IMG/VR virus record: IMGVR_UViG_3300023229_000108
Location: 1 to 21,562 of that record
Length of the DNA: 21,562 bases
Direction: 5' to 3' (one strand)
Origin: a virus
This document shows positions 10,739-17,107 of the stretch, one piece after another; the stretch's first letter is position 1, and each line of letters begins with the position of its first letter. The notes below the pieces were generated by a model that was given only the letters and a program-made list of their open reading frames with translations, was not told the origin of the DNA and searched no databases. The position numbers were made by a program, and so were the translations under genes.

Positions 10739-10840
10739 ATTATAACTAATAGTAACATATCTAAAGGATTTTGTCAAGGGATATTTTGAGTTGTTGTCAA
10801 ATAAAGTTTCTACATCTCTATATCATCCCAGACTTGAGCC
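10739..10840. repeat. Duplicated block, copy 1: promoter plus 3' end of a QV array
   Basis: This stretch matches 12035-12135 almost base for base, apart from a handful of differences and one single-base indel. It contains the TATAAT-TACTAT-TTGACA promoter, the spacer, and the last codons and stop of the array's final QV gene. It places the same early promoter directly behind each array. Confidence 0.85.
10749..10777 (-). promoter_or_regulatory. Early promoter for the 116-aa gene
   Basis: TTGACA (10777-10772), 17 bases, TACTAT (10754-10749). A second hexamer TATAAT (10744-10739) starts four bases after the -10. Confidence 0.8.
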
Positions 10841-10986
10841 TTGACTTGACGCCAGACTTGTTCCCAGACCTGATCCCTGACTTGATCAATGACTTGATCC
10901 ATGACTTGATCCATGACTTGAGCGTTGACTTGAACCCTGACTTGAGCCCAGACTTGATCCATGACTTGATTGCTGACAGATTTCAT
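10810..10986 (-). CDS. QV-repeat protein (58 aa), last gene of the two-gene array
   Basis: The protein starts MKSVSNQV and consists of about 12 tandem Q-V-x-x units (MDQV, WAQV, RVQV, NAQV, IDQV, WEQV, WRQV, KAQV), ending WDDIEM. The variable pair is mostly one bulky residue (W, M, Y, R) plus one small or acidic residue. The ATG overlaps the stop of the preceding QV gene as ATGA, and no SD is seen, so reinitiation is likely. The last 40 bases and the promoter behind them are duplicated at 12105. It is too small for a catalytic domain; a helical or solenoid scaffold is possible. Confidence 0.7.
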   Translation of the reverse strand: MKSVSNQVMDQVWAQVRVQVNAQVMDQVMDQVIDQVRDQVWEQVWRQVKAQVWDDIEM

Positions 10987-11147
10987 TGTATATCATCCCA
11001 GACTTGATCCCAGACTTGATCCATGACTTGAGCGTTGACTTGAACCCTGACTTGAGCCCAGACTTGATCCATGACTTGATTGCTGACTTGATTCCAGACT
11101 TGAAGATAGACTTGATCCATGACTTGAGCCCTGATGGATTTCAGCAA
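10983..11147 (-). CDS. QV-repeat protein without ATG start (54 aa), behind the DUF6745-like gene
   Basis: Eleven Q-V-x-x units follow LLKSIRAQVMDQVYLQVWNQ and end in WDDIQ. It closely matches the beginning of the first gene of the five-gene array (12956-13180), but the expected ATG is CTG and one 12-bp unit (KNKV) is missing. A TTG codon sits just upstream, about 8 bases after GAGGA, and gives the coordinates used here. The gene begins four bases after the DUF6745-like stop and runs into the next QV gene through an ATGA overlap. Either it starts at TTG/CTG, or an inner ATG is used, or it is decaying. Confidence 0.55.
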   Translation of the reverse strand: MLKSIRAQVMDQVYLQVWNQVSNQVMDQVWAQVRVQVNAQVMDQVWDQVWDDIQ

Positions 11148-12034: not shown

Positions 12035-12135
12035 ATTATAACTAATAGTATCATATCTAAAGGATTTTGTCAAGAAGAATCTGAGTTGTTGTCAAATAAA
12101 GTTTCTACATCTCTATATCATCCCAGACTTGAGCC
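12035..12135. repeat. Duplicated block, copy 2: promoter plus 3' end of a QV array
   Basis: Second copy of the block at 10739-10840. It joins the end of the five-gene array to the promoter of the DUF6745-like gene. The near identity includes non-coding spacer, so the duplication is recent or kept alike by recombination. Confidence 0.85.
12045..12073 (-). promoter_or_regulatory. Early promoter for the DUF6745-like gene
   Basis: TTGACA (12073-12068), 17 bases, TACTAT (12050-12045), then TATAAT (12040-12035) four bases further on. The same sequence as the promoter at 10777-10749 except for one base in the spacer. Confidence 0.8.
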
Positions 12136-12281
12136 CTGACTTGATCCATGACTTGATCCCAGACTTGATCCATGACTTGAGCCCTGACTTGATCCCAGAC
12201 TTGATCCATGACTTGATCCCAGACTTGATCCATGACTTGAGCCCTGACTTGATTCTTGACTTGATTGCTGACAGATTTCAT
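12105..12281 (-). CDS. QV-repeat protein (58 aa), fifth gene of the five-gene array
   Basis: MKSVSNQVKNQV is followed by repeating RAQV, MDQV and WDQV units, about 12 in all, with the ending WDDIEM shared with the last gene of the other array. The middle is itself a higher-order repeat of RA-MD-WD-MD-WD. The ATG overlaps the upstream TGA (ATGA). It is shorter than 60 codons, but its boundaries match its neighbours exactly. Confidence 0.7.
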   Translation of the reverse strand: MKSVSNQVKNQVRAQVMDQVWDQVMDQVWDQVRAQVMDQVWDQVMDQVRAQVWDDIEM

Positions 12282-12547
12282 TGTATATCATCCCAGACTT
12301 GATCCCTGACTTGATTGGTGACTTGTTCCCTGACTTGATTGCTGACTTGATTCCAGACTTGATTCCAGACTTGACCATAGGCTTGAGTGTTGACTTGATC
12401 CCAGACTTGATCATTGACTTGATCCCAGACTTGATCCATGACTTGATCCCAGACTTGATTGCTGACTTGAACCCTGACTTGAGCGTTGACTTGAACCCTG
12501 ACTTGAGCCCAGACTTGATCCATGACTTGATTGCTGACAGATTTCAT
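12278..12547 (-). CDS. QV-repeat protein (89 aa), fourth gene of the array
   Basis: This is the longest QV protein here: MKSVSNQV, 19 QV units and one variant (NTQAYGQV), ending WDDIQ. It shares the stretch WNQVWNQVSNQVREQVTNQV with the third gene, which points to unit-level duplication. Start and stop overlap both neighbours as ATGA. Confidence 0.7.
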   Translation of the reverse strand: MKSVSNQVMDQVWAQVRVQVNAQVRVQVSNQVWDQVMDQVWDQVNDQVWDQVNTQAYGQVWNQVWNQVSNQVREQVTNQVRDQVWDDIQ

Positions 12548-12729
12548 TGTATATCATCCCAGACTTGATCCCTGACTTGATTGGTGACTTGTTCCCTGAC
12601 TTGATTGCTGACTTGATTCCAGACTTGATTCCAGACTTGAAGATAGACTTGAGTGTTGACTTGATCCCAGACTTGATCATTGACTTGATCCATGACTTGA
12701 TCCATGACTTGATTCTTGACTGATTTCAT
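12544..12729 (-). CDS. QV-repeat protein (61 aa), third gene of the array
   Basis: MKSVKNQV plus MDQV, NDQV, WDQV, NTQV, YLQV and WNQV units, 13 QV in all, ending WDDIQ. Same four-base ATGA coupling on both sides. No Cys, no charge cluster, no signal peptide. Confidence 0.7.
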   Translation of the reverse strand: MKSVKNQVMDQVMDQVNDQVWDQVNTQVYLQVWNQVWNQVSNQVREQVTNQVRDQVWDDIQ

Positions 12730-12959
12730 TTTATATCATGCATGACTTGTCTATAGACTTGACCATAGGCTTGAGTGCTGACTTGATCATAGACTTGATC
12801 CATGACTTGACGCCAGACTTGTTCCCAGACCTGATCCATGACTTGATTGCTGACTTGATTCCAGACTTGAAGATAGACTTGATCCATGACTTGATCCCTG
12901 ACTTGAGCGTTGACTTGAACCCTGACTTGAGCCCTGACTTGATTCTTGACTGATTTCAT
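12726..12959 (-). CDS. QV-repeat protein (77 aa), second gene of the array
   Basis: MKSVKNQVRAQV, 16 QV units and one QA variant (STQAYGQV), ending YRQVMHDIK. It contains the block YLQVWNQVSNQVMDQVW that is also in the first gene and in the TTG-start copy at 10983. ATGA overlaps at both ends. Confidence 0.7.
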   Translation of the reverse strand: MKSVKNQVRAQVRVQVNAQVRDQVMDQVYLQVWNQVSNQVMDQVWEQVWRQVMDQVYDQVSTQAYGQVYRQVMHDIK

Positions 12960-13180
12960 TTTATATCATCCATGACTTGAGCCCAGACTTGATCATAGAC
13001 TTGATTGCTGACTTGATCCATGACTTGAGCCCAGACTTGATCCATGACTTGAGCGTTGACTTGAACCCTGACTTGAGCCCAGACTTGATCCATGACTTGA
13101 TTGCTGACTTGATTCCAGACTTGAAGATAGACTTGATCCATGACTTGAGCCCTGACTTTATTCTTAACTGATTTCATCAT
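12956..13180 (-). CDS. QV-repeat protein (74 aa), first gene of the array
   Basis: The frame begins MMKSVKNKVRAQV; either of two adjacent ATGs could be used. It has 15 QV units and one KV, and ends WAQVMDDIK. It starts one base after the stop of the 49-aa gene and so would be translated from the same message, driven by the early promoter at 13392-13364. All QV dipeptides are written CAAGTC. It looks like the parent of the copy at 10983-11147. Confidence 0.72.
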   Translation of the reverse strand: MMKSVKNKVRAQVMDQVYLQVWNQVSNQVMDQVWAQVRVQVNAQVMDQVWAQVMDQVSNQVYDQVWAQVMDDIK

Positions 13181-13928: not shown

Positions 13929-14408
13929 TCAGAACTTATTAGACTTTCGCAGATTTTCGGTTATTGTAAGGTATTGCAGATTACTCACCGTATGTAACCC
14001 AGATACATTCTTACCATTCAATGGAACAATATGATCTACATGAAAACCTGTGGGACAGTTACGGTAGAACTCCTGTATTTCATCCATATCATCGAAGACA
14101 AATCTTTCTTTGATACGCTTACTATTCTTTGCATTACGAGCTGCATATTTACCCTTATAGTATTCCCTCTGATATGCTCTGAGGTGTTCTCTGTTTTCCC
14201 TCTGCCATTTTATAGTGTTTGTATTTTTGTTAATTATATTATTCCTTTTCTTATGGCAAGGAACACATCGACTGGTTTTGTATATAACAGGTTCACCCTT
14301 AACATTATACCGCTTTTGTTTTACTAGTAACCTTAAAGTAGAACCACACTTACGACAGGGGTTTCCCTCTTTGTATGCTGGTTCTTTCTTGCTGCCTTTA
14401 TTACCCAT
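13929..14408 (-). CDS. HNH endonuclease, probable free-standing homing enzyme
   Basis: The 159-aa protein has a zinc-finger-like N-terminus, Cys18-x-x-Cys21 and Cys48-x-x-Cys51. A basic linker follows (NREHLRAYQREYYKGKYAARN). The C-terminal HNH core reads GFHVDHIVPLNGKNVSGLH (Asp125-His126), then Asn143 in SNLQYL and Asn152 in ENLRKSNKF. Such enzymes nick or cut a target in related phages and spread their own gene. It sits among small accessory genes next to repeats and an RNA-like region with no gene. A TATAAATA box ends five bases before the ATG; AGAGAT is the only SD candidate. It appears intact. Confidence 0.9.
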   Translation of the reverse strand: MGNKGSKKEPAYKEGNPCRKCGSTLRLLVKQKRYNVKGEPVIYKTSRCVPCHKKRNNIINKNTNTIKWQRENREHLRAYQREYYKGKYAARNAKNSKRIKERFVFDDMDEIQEFYRNCPTGFHVDHIVPLNGKNVSGLHTVSNLQYLTITENLRKSNKF

Positions 14409-14413
14409 ATCTC

Positions 14414-14421
14414 TATTTATA
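14414..14421 (-). promoter_or_regulatory. T4-late-like box abutting the HNH start
   Basis: TATAAATA with five bases (GAGAT) to the ATG. A late transcript started here would have almost no leader. T4 homing endonuclease genes are known to be held to late expression, so late control would fit. Confidence 0.45.
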
Positions 14422-14560
14422 TCTTACTGCATTTATAGAAAAGTAAAGGGTAGTTCAATTGAAAGGCTGTCAGTTCTGGGTAGGGGCGTTCGAGATTTCT
14501 CTCTGGATACTATGGGGGTTTGTAGTCTGTCATTGCTTGCCCAGTCTTAGACCCCCCTTT

Positions 14561-14577
14561 ATGGCCTCTGAGGCCAT
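14561..14577. repeat. Perfect hairpin, 8-bp arms with 1-base centre
   Basis: ATGGCCTC and GAGGCCAT are separated by one base, seven bases beyond the tRNA-Ser-like 3' end in transcription order. No T-run follows on the minus strand, so it is more likely an RNA processing or stability hairpin than an intrinsic terminator. Confidence 0.7.
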
Positions 14578-14583
14578 GAGAGG

Positions 14584-14674
14584 TGGAGAGAGGGGGAATC
14601 GAACCCCCTGTTAGGTAGTGTGAGCTACCTTGATATGTTCTCACAATCTATATCATTCACTCGCCAGACTCCCC
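14584..14674 (-). tRNA. tRNA-Ser-like element with degenerate 5' half (possible pseudo-tRNA)
   Basis: The minus strand has a canonical T arm (GGGGG, TTCGATT, CCCCC), a 3' acceptor strand TCTCTCC with A after it, and a long variable arm (GGTAG, CTCACA, CTACC), as in class II tRNAs. The 5' end GGGGAGT pairs with the acceptor strand except at position 7 and has one G-U. GGCGAGTG resembles a Ser D arm, but I cannot close a D stem. The best anticodon stem (GATAT/ATATC) leaves a 13-base loop, so no anticodon is assigned. The 91-base length fits Ser or Leu. It is either a decayed tRNA, a 3' tRNA half joined to foreign sequence, or a fold I cannot resolve by eye. Confidence 0.45.
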
Positions 14675-14679
14675 GTAAA

Positions 14680-14695
14680 GGTGGAATATTCCACC
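14680..14695. repeat. Perfect 16-bp palindrome
   Basis: GGTGGAATATTCCACC lies six bases before the first base of the tRNA-like element in transcription order. Confidence 0.75.
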
Positions 14696-14705
14696 AATAG
14701 AAAAG

Positions 14706-14812
14706 AGAGATGCATCAGTCCACTTAGCTATTCAGCTGTATACGAGAGGGAAGAATGTTCTTCCCAATGGACACAATATTGTGTCCTCTAAGACCATTCG
14801 GGATGCATCTCT
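14706..14812. other. Candidate structured RNA closed by an 11-bp inverted repeat
   Basis: AGAGATGCATC (14706-14716) is repeated inverted as GATGCATCTCT (14802-14812). Inside are two perfect palindromes, GGGAAGAATGTTCTTCCC (14748-14765, two-base centre) and GGACACAATATTGTGTCC (14769-14786). The whole 107 bases could fold as a closed multi-branch RNA. No open frame of use is present. Together with 14409-14705 this makes a stretch of over 400 bases with no protein gene. Confidence 0.6.
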
Positions 14813-14820
14813 GAGTATCT

Positions 14821-15024
14821 CTAGAACAGTATCCTTGTTCCCATCTCTGTTACATCATTGAACCTGTTCAGCGCTTCCTCATATGAAGTGTCATCGAGGA
14901 TAGTAAACTCCTTAGGTCCCTTATAAGCGAAACCAATTTCAAGCTCATACCGATAGTTCCCATAAGACCAGAGCCACACAGGCACCTCACCATCGTAACC
15001 CTTAGCGGCCAATGTAATGTCCAT
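14821..15024 (-). CDS. Hypothetical protein (67 aa)
   Basis: Starts MDITLAAKGYDGEVPVWLW and continues YRYELEIGFAYKGPKEFTI, ending in an amphipathic helix (SYEEALNRFNDVTEM). It is probably a small alpha/beta protein. The ATG is three bases after the preceding stop, with GGGAG about 9 bases before it. It is the last gene before the palindrome-rich region. No family recognised. Confidence 0.65.
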   Translation of the reverse strand: MDITLAAKGYDGEVPVWLWSYGNYRYELEIGFAYKGPKEFTILDDTSYEEALNRFNDVTEMGTRILF

Positions 15025-16897: not shown

Positions 16898-17107
16898 TCA
16901 TTGTAAGTGCCACCGCAGTGGCGAAAAACGCAATCCATAAGTTTCGTTTGAAACGCAAAATACTATCTTTGTTGTGCACCATTGTGCTCTCCAAAAGTTG
17001 GCAGCCTGAGGAGGAATCGAACCTCCGTTACCTGATTCAAAGTCAGGGTCTATACCAAGTTCTTTACATCTATATCTTGGTATGATATGGTGTTTATGCT
17101 TACTCAT
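16898..17107 (-). pseudogene. Truncated HNH endonuclease N-terminus reading into a tRNA-Gln 3' half
   Basis: The first 23 codons (MSKHKHHIIPRYRCKELGID then PDF) carry the His-His-Ile-Ile-Pro start of a small HNH family I recall from marine phages, where the next residues would be PENL. Here the frame passes straight into tRNA sequence (from about 17047), giving meaningless residues to the stop. The HNH catalytic remainder is absent. The ATG overlaps the stop of the 99-aa gene by one base (TGATG), so it is probably still translated. Best read as an endonuclease gene cut by recombination, with CCTGACTTT shared by both parents at the join. Confidence 0.6.
16999..17047 (-). tRNA. tRNA-Gln(UUG) 3' half, 5' half missing
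   Basis: The minus strand has a perfect anticodon arm (CCTGA, CTTTGAA, TCAGG) with anticodon TTG at 17040-17038. A variable loop follows, then a T arm (GGAGG, TTCGATT, CCTCC) and the acceptor strand TCAGGCT with G discriminator and encoded CCA. The matching 5' strand AGCCTGA and a D arm are not present upstream; that place is filled by HNH codons. So this is a tRNA remnant or a recombined half, probably not charged. The G discriminator agrees with Gln. Confidence 0.7.

Follow-up and report, generated by a model that had tools for sequence, protein, structure and literature searches.

Structured RNAs at the start of an early transcript and with a terminator-like end are known among the put RNA antiterminators and the 5'-leader attenuators, and HK022 has two put sites. 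For the species 1 RNA of phage T4 (also rnaC or band C RNA) the annotation goes no further than small stable RNA, and it is not known to have an assigned function. In bacteria, Y RNAs adjoin RtcB and the RtcB operons can carry a Y RNA (PMC7790460), and the marine phage Melnitz carries a two-piece tmRNA (PMC9004378). The ligase of T4 repairs cleaved tRNA-Lys, and phage tRNAs have been proposed to resist host anticodon nucleases (PMC10264068).

The window, i.e. the whole stretch of DNA analysed here, is a 21.5-kb virus sequence of a T4-like phage (proteins of the gp6, gp5, UvsX and gp41 types), with the OM43 methylophages of the Melnitz group as its closest isolates according to the helicase (70.6% identity). 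All its likely genes are found on the minus strand, and the stretch studied was therefore read on that strand; it lies past the end of one gene (14821-15024) and ahead of the start of another, which is endonuclease VII-like (13929-14408), and is gene-free as claimed before. The earlier note described four perfect palindromes here. Three of these are present, at 14561-14577 (8-bp arms, 1-nt centre), 14680-14695 (8 bp) and 14769-14786 (9 bp), while the fourth, GGGAAGAATGTTCTTCCC at 14748-14765, is imperfect with 8-bp arms and a 2-nt spacer. The 11-bp pair AGAGATGCATC/GATGCATCTCT could be located at 14706-14716 and 14802-14812, where it encloses 14748-14765 and 14769-14786 as described. Three palindromes with arms of at least 7 within 252 bp were seen in 0 of 200 order-1 and 2 of 200 order-2 Markov simulations, which modelled the whole 21.5-kb window, and the cluster therefore exceeds chance. 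RNA folding of 14540-14830 beats shuffled sequences on both strands (z -4.4 and -4.9). What is conserved among relatives is the interior of the 11-bp inverted repeat and not the palindromes, which the earlier note had missed, and the region 14584-14812 on the minus strand of this T4-like phage holds two adjacent noncoding RNA elements, both predicted RNAs and from now on referred to as Element 1 and Element 2.

Some further features were observed in the window. Long degenerate 12-bp repeat arrays with the consensus ATCCCTGACTTG are located at 10825-11134 and 12120-13158 (about 26 and 86 copies) and run across overlapping short ORFs. On the minus strand, 17002-17061 contains a tRNA-Gln-like 3' half with the anticodon loop CTTTGAA, a T-arm and an encoded GCCA; it scores 32 bits with the Rfam tRNA model and is negative in ARAGORN, and no matching 5' acceptor strand was seen upstream. 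Two T4-late-promoter-like boxes are positioned on the minus strand at 14414-14437, just before the endonuclease VII-like gene: TATAAATG at 14437-14430, which is conserved in relatives, and TATAAATA at 14421-14414.

Element 1 (14812-14701, minus strand) consists of a terminal helix P1, which is the 11-bp inverted repeat and closes a highly conserved core of ~40 nt, followed by the unpaired CCGAAU, a helix P2 and a small hairpin P3:

14802-14812, minus strand: P1 5' strand (AGAGATGCATC), pairs with 14706-14716
14796-14801, minus strand: unpaired CCGAAU between P1 and P2, mostly invariant or near-invariant alignment columns
14792-14795, minus strand: P2 5' strand GGUC, partner of 14717-14720; cells 100% paired, two positions with double changes
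14735-14737, minus strand: P3 5' strand AGC, in the conserved core; covariance model match 14720-14748
14726-14728, minus strand: P3 3' strand GCU, from the alignment and covariation of relatives
14717-14720, minus strand: P2 3' strand GACU, from covariation
14706-14716, minus strand: P1 3' strand (GATGCATCTCT), from covariation and fold
14701-14704, minus strand: T-run past P1, terminator-like, from T-run statistics over 46 clusters

The core reads CCGAAUGGNCUUUCGUAUAUUGCUGAAUUGCUARGUGGNCUG, and the CCGAAUGG core may resemble a segment of 23S rRNA. When aligning 39 copies from relatives, 88% of the cells were found to be paired and 18 of the 21 pairs to carry double changes, with none of 500 shuffles as good, and in a control with a slid partner strand the pairing fell to near 40% and the signal was destroyed. 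The sequence of P1 changes completely among these copies with the pairing kept, all 13 modelled P1 pairs having changed on both sides, and P2 and P3 covary too.

Relatives were gathered via the helicase and by DNA patterns, which resulted in 67 copies of Element 1 in 46 clusters, from uncultured phage contigs. In a model search 19 of 22 records, the longest of them 179 kb, had a single copy each. When viral contigs were scanned with further patterns, one more clear copy was revealed, and the sample is therefore near saturation for the patterns used. No Element 1 was found at E <= 1 in 11 isolated phages, among them T4, HTVC008M, Melnitz, Cr30 and pf16, most of them picked because they carry a related gene for a helicase, an RNA ligase or RtcB. 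Candidates in bacterial genomes were rejected, since among the pattern matches listed, 80 of them scored with the model, they behave like chance (best 22.8 bits). Neither Element 1 nor Element 2 comes above the gathering cut-off of any family in Rfam release 15, and neither is described in the literature searched (full text, incomplete coverage) or in a survey of 104 candidate RNAs; the novelty of the two is judged from this absence in the literature, which is weak evidence.

A sigma-70-like promoter score of at least 10 was found ahead of the core in 24 of 43 loci, compared to 3.7% of control positions. The -10 box is usually located ~22-25 nt upstream of the core, and because of this distance P1 begins near the expected transcription start; the window's own upstream promoter is weak (score 7). 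At the other end a T-run of at least four follows P1 in 85% of the 46 clusters, the window included, compared to 4% of control positions, giving the stem and T-run of a putative intrinsic terminator, and some copies, e.g. L123, L112 and L134, are without the T-run. Promoter, P1 and T-run together are the anatomy of a putative small RNA gene or terminated leader. As a separate observation, the promoter spacer upstream of Element 1 in L123, L112 and L113 is an inverted repeat of the P1 3' strand, exact over 14 nt in L123 and L112 on visual inspection, which looks as though one arm were a copy taken from the other place.

When analysing the gene neighbourhood, all genes found for RtcB (6/6), T4-type RNA ligase 1 (4/4) and PTH2 (6/6) turned out to lie downstream of Element 1, on the same strand and within about 2.5 kb, counts which are not independent as the contigs are partly related and mostly belong to other groups than the window's own. 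In L128 a kinase-like gene comes directly after the RNA ligase gene, a tRNA-Lys is found downstream of Element 1 in L112, L113, L119, L123 and L136, and in L101 a permuted tmRNA is situated 2.9 kb downstream. At least four different arrangements can be told apart, namely RtcB plus tRNA-Lys, ligase plus kinase, tRNA-Lys plus PTH2, and tmRNA. No RNA-repair gene was identified downstream in the window, where the endonuclease VII-like gene and the repeats are found instead, and several Element 1 copies in the window's group are followed only by a late-promoter motif and by no gene of the repair/tRNA operon type.

We consider it moderately probable that Element 1 serves the repair and supply of phage tRNA, either as a small RNA or as a terminated leader, and that Element 2 is a T4-species-1-like RNA. 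Element 1 would then be an RNA of 70 to 110 nt that starts near the foot of P1, often at an early sigma-70 promoter, and ends either at the P1/T-run terminator or by trimming beside the following tRNA or tRNA-like RNA. It would act as a stand-alone small RNA or as a terminated leader, its core probably binding a partner that works with RtcB, RNA ligase 1 and kinase, tRNA-Lys, PTH2 and tmRNA. Enzymes of tRNA processing would most likely free Element 2 and in doing so define the 3' end of Element 1 as well.

The nearest competitor is a cis-acting leader, with Element 1 as a riboswitch-like attenuator or a put-like antiterminator gating the RNA-repair and tRNA genes. This is possible but rather doubtful: the position at a predicted transcript start and the terminator-like P1 and T-run just before the first gene are what such a leader would have, while the single copy per genome, compared to the two put sites of HK022, the copies in the window's group that precede only a late-promoter motif, and the fact that no conserved alternative pairing of P1 was noticed argue against it. 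Element 1 is unlikely to belong to the Y RNAs that bind Ro60 (Rsr), as known from the rsr-yrlBA-rtcBA repair operon. No TROVE/Ro60 gene was found in 25 phage records (phage records only) and the compact copies gave no Y RNA or YrlA match in Rfam up to E 10, and on these two grounds membership was rejected; the loop also looks too short to hold a tRNA-like module such as that of YrlA. These points are set against the T-run end, the RtcB in the neighbourhood and the conserved CCGA(A/G)UGG on the 5' strand of the terminal stem, at a place that would correspond to the Ro60 site in vertebrate Y RNAs.

Compared with insert-free copies of Element 1 the P2-P3 loop in the window is longer by 44 nt, made up of two of the palindromes, hairpins A and B, and the covariance model recognises in the window only the half of the core left whole by the inserts (14720-14748). 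The four palindromic hairpins are placed as follows:

14769-14786, minus strand: hairpin A, inserted palindrome in the Element 1 loop between P2 and P3
14748-14765, minus strand: hairpin B, 8-bp arms and 2-nt spacer, in the same Element 1 loop as hairpin A; folded
14680-14695, minus strand: hairpin C, palindromic, between Element 1 and Element 2
14561-14577, minus strand: hairpin D, palindromic, just past Element 2; seen only in the window's own lineage

L006 and L092, nearly identical to the window, carry near-identical hairpins A and B together with hairpin C, and L049 has a single different hairpin at the site of A/B, AGGGGUUA-AUAU-UAACCUCU, and a hairpin C with one change that leaves a G-U pair. 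Hairpins A-D were found in no other relative among those compared. Because the insert-free relatives lack A-D, which sit in loops and linkers, the palindromes are lineage-specific hairpin inserts, two in one loop, one in the linker and one just downstream. The structured RNA and the tRNA-like element named in the earlier note are borne out by covariation across relatives, in Element 1 as well as in Element 2, yet not for the palindromes themselves, which are absent from nearly all relatives; on that ground they were ruled out as conserved functional sites. They would need no separate function beyond that of stable peripheral hairpins.

It had also been proposed that the palindromes are DNA sites for a binding or resolving protein. 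They could be sites for a dimeric protein or substrates of the endonuclease VII-like protein (13929-14408), whose gene the perfect palindromes adjoin. We regard this as improbable. Common to the three perfect palindromes and hairpin B is at most AATATT or AACATT at the centre, which lends no support to a common site, and they replace nothing conserved in relatives. The segment holding them is without a second copy in the 21.5-kb record, and hairpin C of L049 is kept only via its G-U pair, as would be expected of an RNA but not of a DNA site.

In most relatives of the window, Element 2 (14674-14584, minus strand, about 91 nt) follows directly on Element 1. Its acceptor stem has six pairs and a mismatch; a strand resembling a D-loop, the arm P2, the hairpin of the variable arm and a T-arm with perfect pairing complete it, and there is no anticodon arm:

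14668-14674, minus strand: acceptor 5' strand GGGGAGU, pairs with 14585-14591 except at the 7th position; variants keep six pairs
14650-14655, minus strand: arm P2 5' strand UGAUAU, partner of 14631-14636; variants show seven further strand pairs
14640-14645, minus strand: kissing segment UGUGAG in the P2 loop, complementary to 14619-14624
14631-14636, minus strand: P2 3' strand AUAUCA, covariation in variants
14613-14630, minus strand: variable-arm hairpin AGGUAG[CUCACA]CUACCU, 9 distinct strand pairs among 11 sequences
14592-14608, minus strand: T-arm GGGGG-UUCGAUU-CCCCC, 5 strand pairs among variants
14584-14591, minus strand: acceptor 3' strand UCUCUCC and discriminator A, pairs kept in variants

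Among 11 sequences the arms vary yet stay paired, in 58 of 59 cells for P2, 59 of 59 for the variable arm and 55 of 55 for the T-arm. In the window's class the UGUGAG of the P2 loop is complementary to the entire variable-arm loop CUCACA, and other variants have the loop pairs CUGAC/GUCAG, GAUGA/UCAUC and CUGAU/AUCAG. When six loop types were compared, those of T4 and TG1 included, the true pairing outscored all 719 other pairings (best of 720), statistics which are supportive and not strict as the arm segments and kissing loops were partly chosen by eye; the variable-arm contact was not seen in one variant group (L078, the first copy of L094, and L130). These data support a predicted kissing of the apical loop of the middle arm with the variable-arm loop. 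The predicted secondary structures of both Element 1 and Element 2 are well supported. Apart from this it was observed that in L094 one Element 1 is followed by a tandem of two tRNA-like elements, which belong to different classes.

Element 2 was rejected as a tRNA, having no anticodon arm, and ARAGORN finds none in the window; among the loci with the window's class of Element 2 only L010 was called, as tRNA-His. It was likewise rejected as a tmRNA, with 19.5 bits against a cut-off of 47 for a model that includes the tag reading frame and pseudoknots, and with ARAGORN negative; the tmRNA and tRNA-like models of Rfam match around the T-arm only below threshold. The alanine identity pair G3-U70 occurs in the window and in L049 and L084 but is missing from L016, L015 and L032, being replaced by A3-U70 in L016 and by G3-C70 in L032.

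An origin of Element 2 by decay of a tRNA or tmRNA gene, or as an attP copy of the end of a host tRNA, is likewise improbable. An intact T-arm and acceptor and the weak tmRNA match could be remnants of such a gene, but the variants, with their changed sequences, retain every arm and the loop-loop contact, 67 bases are identical while the neighbouring phage DNA is only about 72% identical, and no tag reading frame was noticed by eye. The attP origin was rejected as no integrase was found among the proteins scanned and Element 2 is kept in diverged phages. A chance cluster with no RNA function, for which only the lack of conservation of the palindromes speaks, is hardly credible: Element 1 and Element 2 both covary, which already contradicts it, and the simulation statistics are also against it.

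The T4 species 1 RNA (NC_000866 70908-71046, analysed as L299:909-1047) has a T-arm, an acceptor and a variable-arm loop CGUCAA complementary to an apical UUGACG. The loop pairing is kept across six relatives of T4 rnaC (L300-L305), the Yersinia phage TG1 has UUGAUG/CAUCAA, a compensatory loop-loop change, and in fGh-Ecl01 and NM4.3 the middle domain is replaced and UUGACG stays. Pair counts with the species 1 structure beat 500 of 500 shuffles on four measures, and for T4 alone the chance of the loop complement is about 2%. In most of the relatives two mismatches, U-U or U-C, persist in the acceptor stem.

A joint and more far-reaching reading, which we put forward tentatively and hold to be less probable than the one preferred above, is that Element 1 represents a class of small phage RNAs not described before and dedicated to the repair or protection of tRNA and, at the same time, that Element 2 and the T4 species 1 RNA form one class. 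Element 1 may then be e.g. a bait for, or a regulator of, a host anticodon nuclease or phage ligases, and tRNA-like phage RNAs with kissing loops may be widespread and have a common job. The reading preferred above, if right, would add a structured RNA family to the RNA-repair operons of phages, the systems undoing host attacks on tRNA, and would give the T4 species 1 RNA a testable architecture, for which a compensatory change has already been found in nature.

Compared to the known systems, Element 1 is like the put RNA of HK022 and the leader attenuators in being a structured RNA at a predicted early-transcript start with a terminator-like end, and unlike put in having one copy per genome, a likeness by description and not by sequence. 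With the bacterial Y RNA YrlA it has in common to be a small stem-loop RNA by RtcB, with a putatively comparable CCGA-like motif beside the terminal helix, whereas it differs in the Ro60 gene missing from the phage records, the missing Rfam match and a loop without a tRNA-like module. Element 2 resembles tmRNA (ssrA) with an acceptor stem, a T-arm and no D-stem or anticodon arm, but is only about 91 nt, scores far below threshold and does not conserve G3-U70. The T4 species 1 RNA is encoded among phage tRNAs, in a large tRNA cluster unlike Element 2, and has an exchangeable middle domain; no sequence similarity to Element 2 was found beyond the tRNA consensus, a DNA search with the window's elements gave no T4-type match, and in contrast to the marine loci no Element 1 was found in T4. 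Common to the two RNAs are the tRNA-like acceptor and T-arm and the complementarity of the loops of the variable arm and the middle domain, and with this architecture present Element 2 is most likely a T4-species-1-like RNA, by common architecture and not by demonstrated descent.
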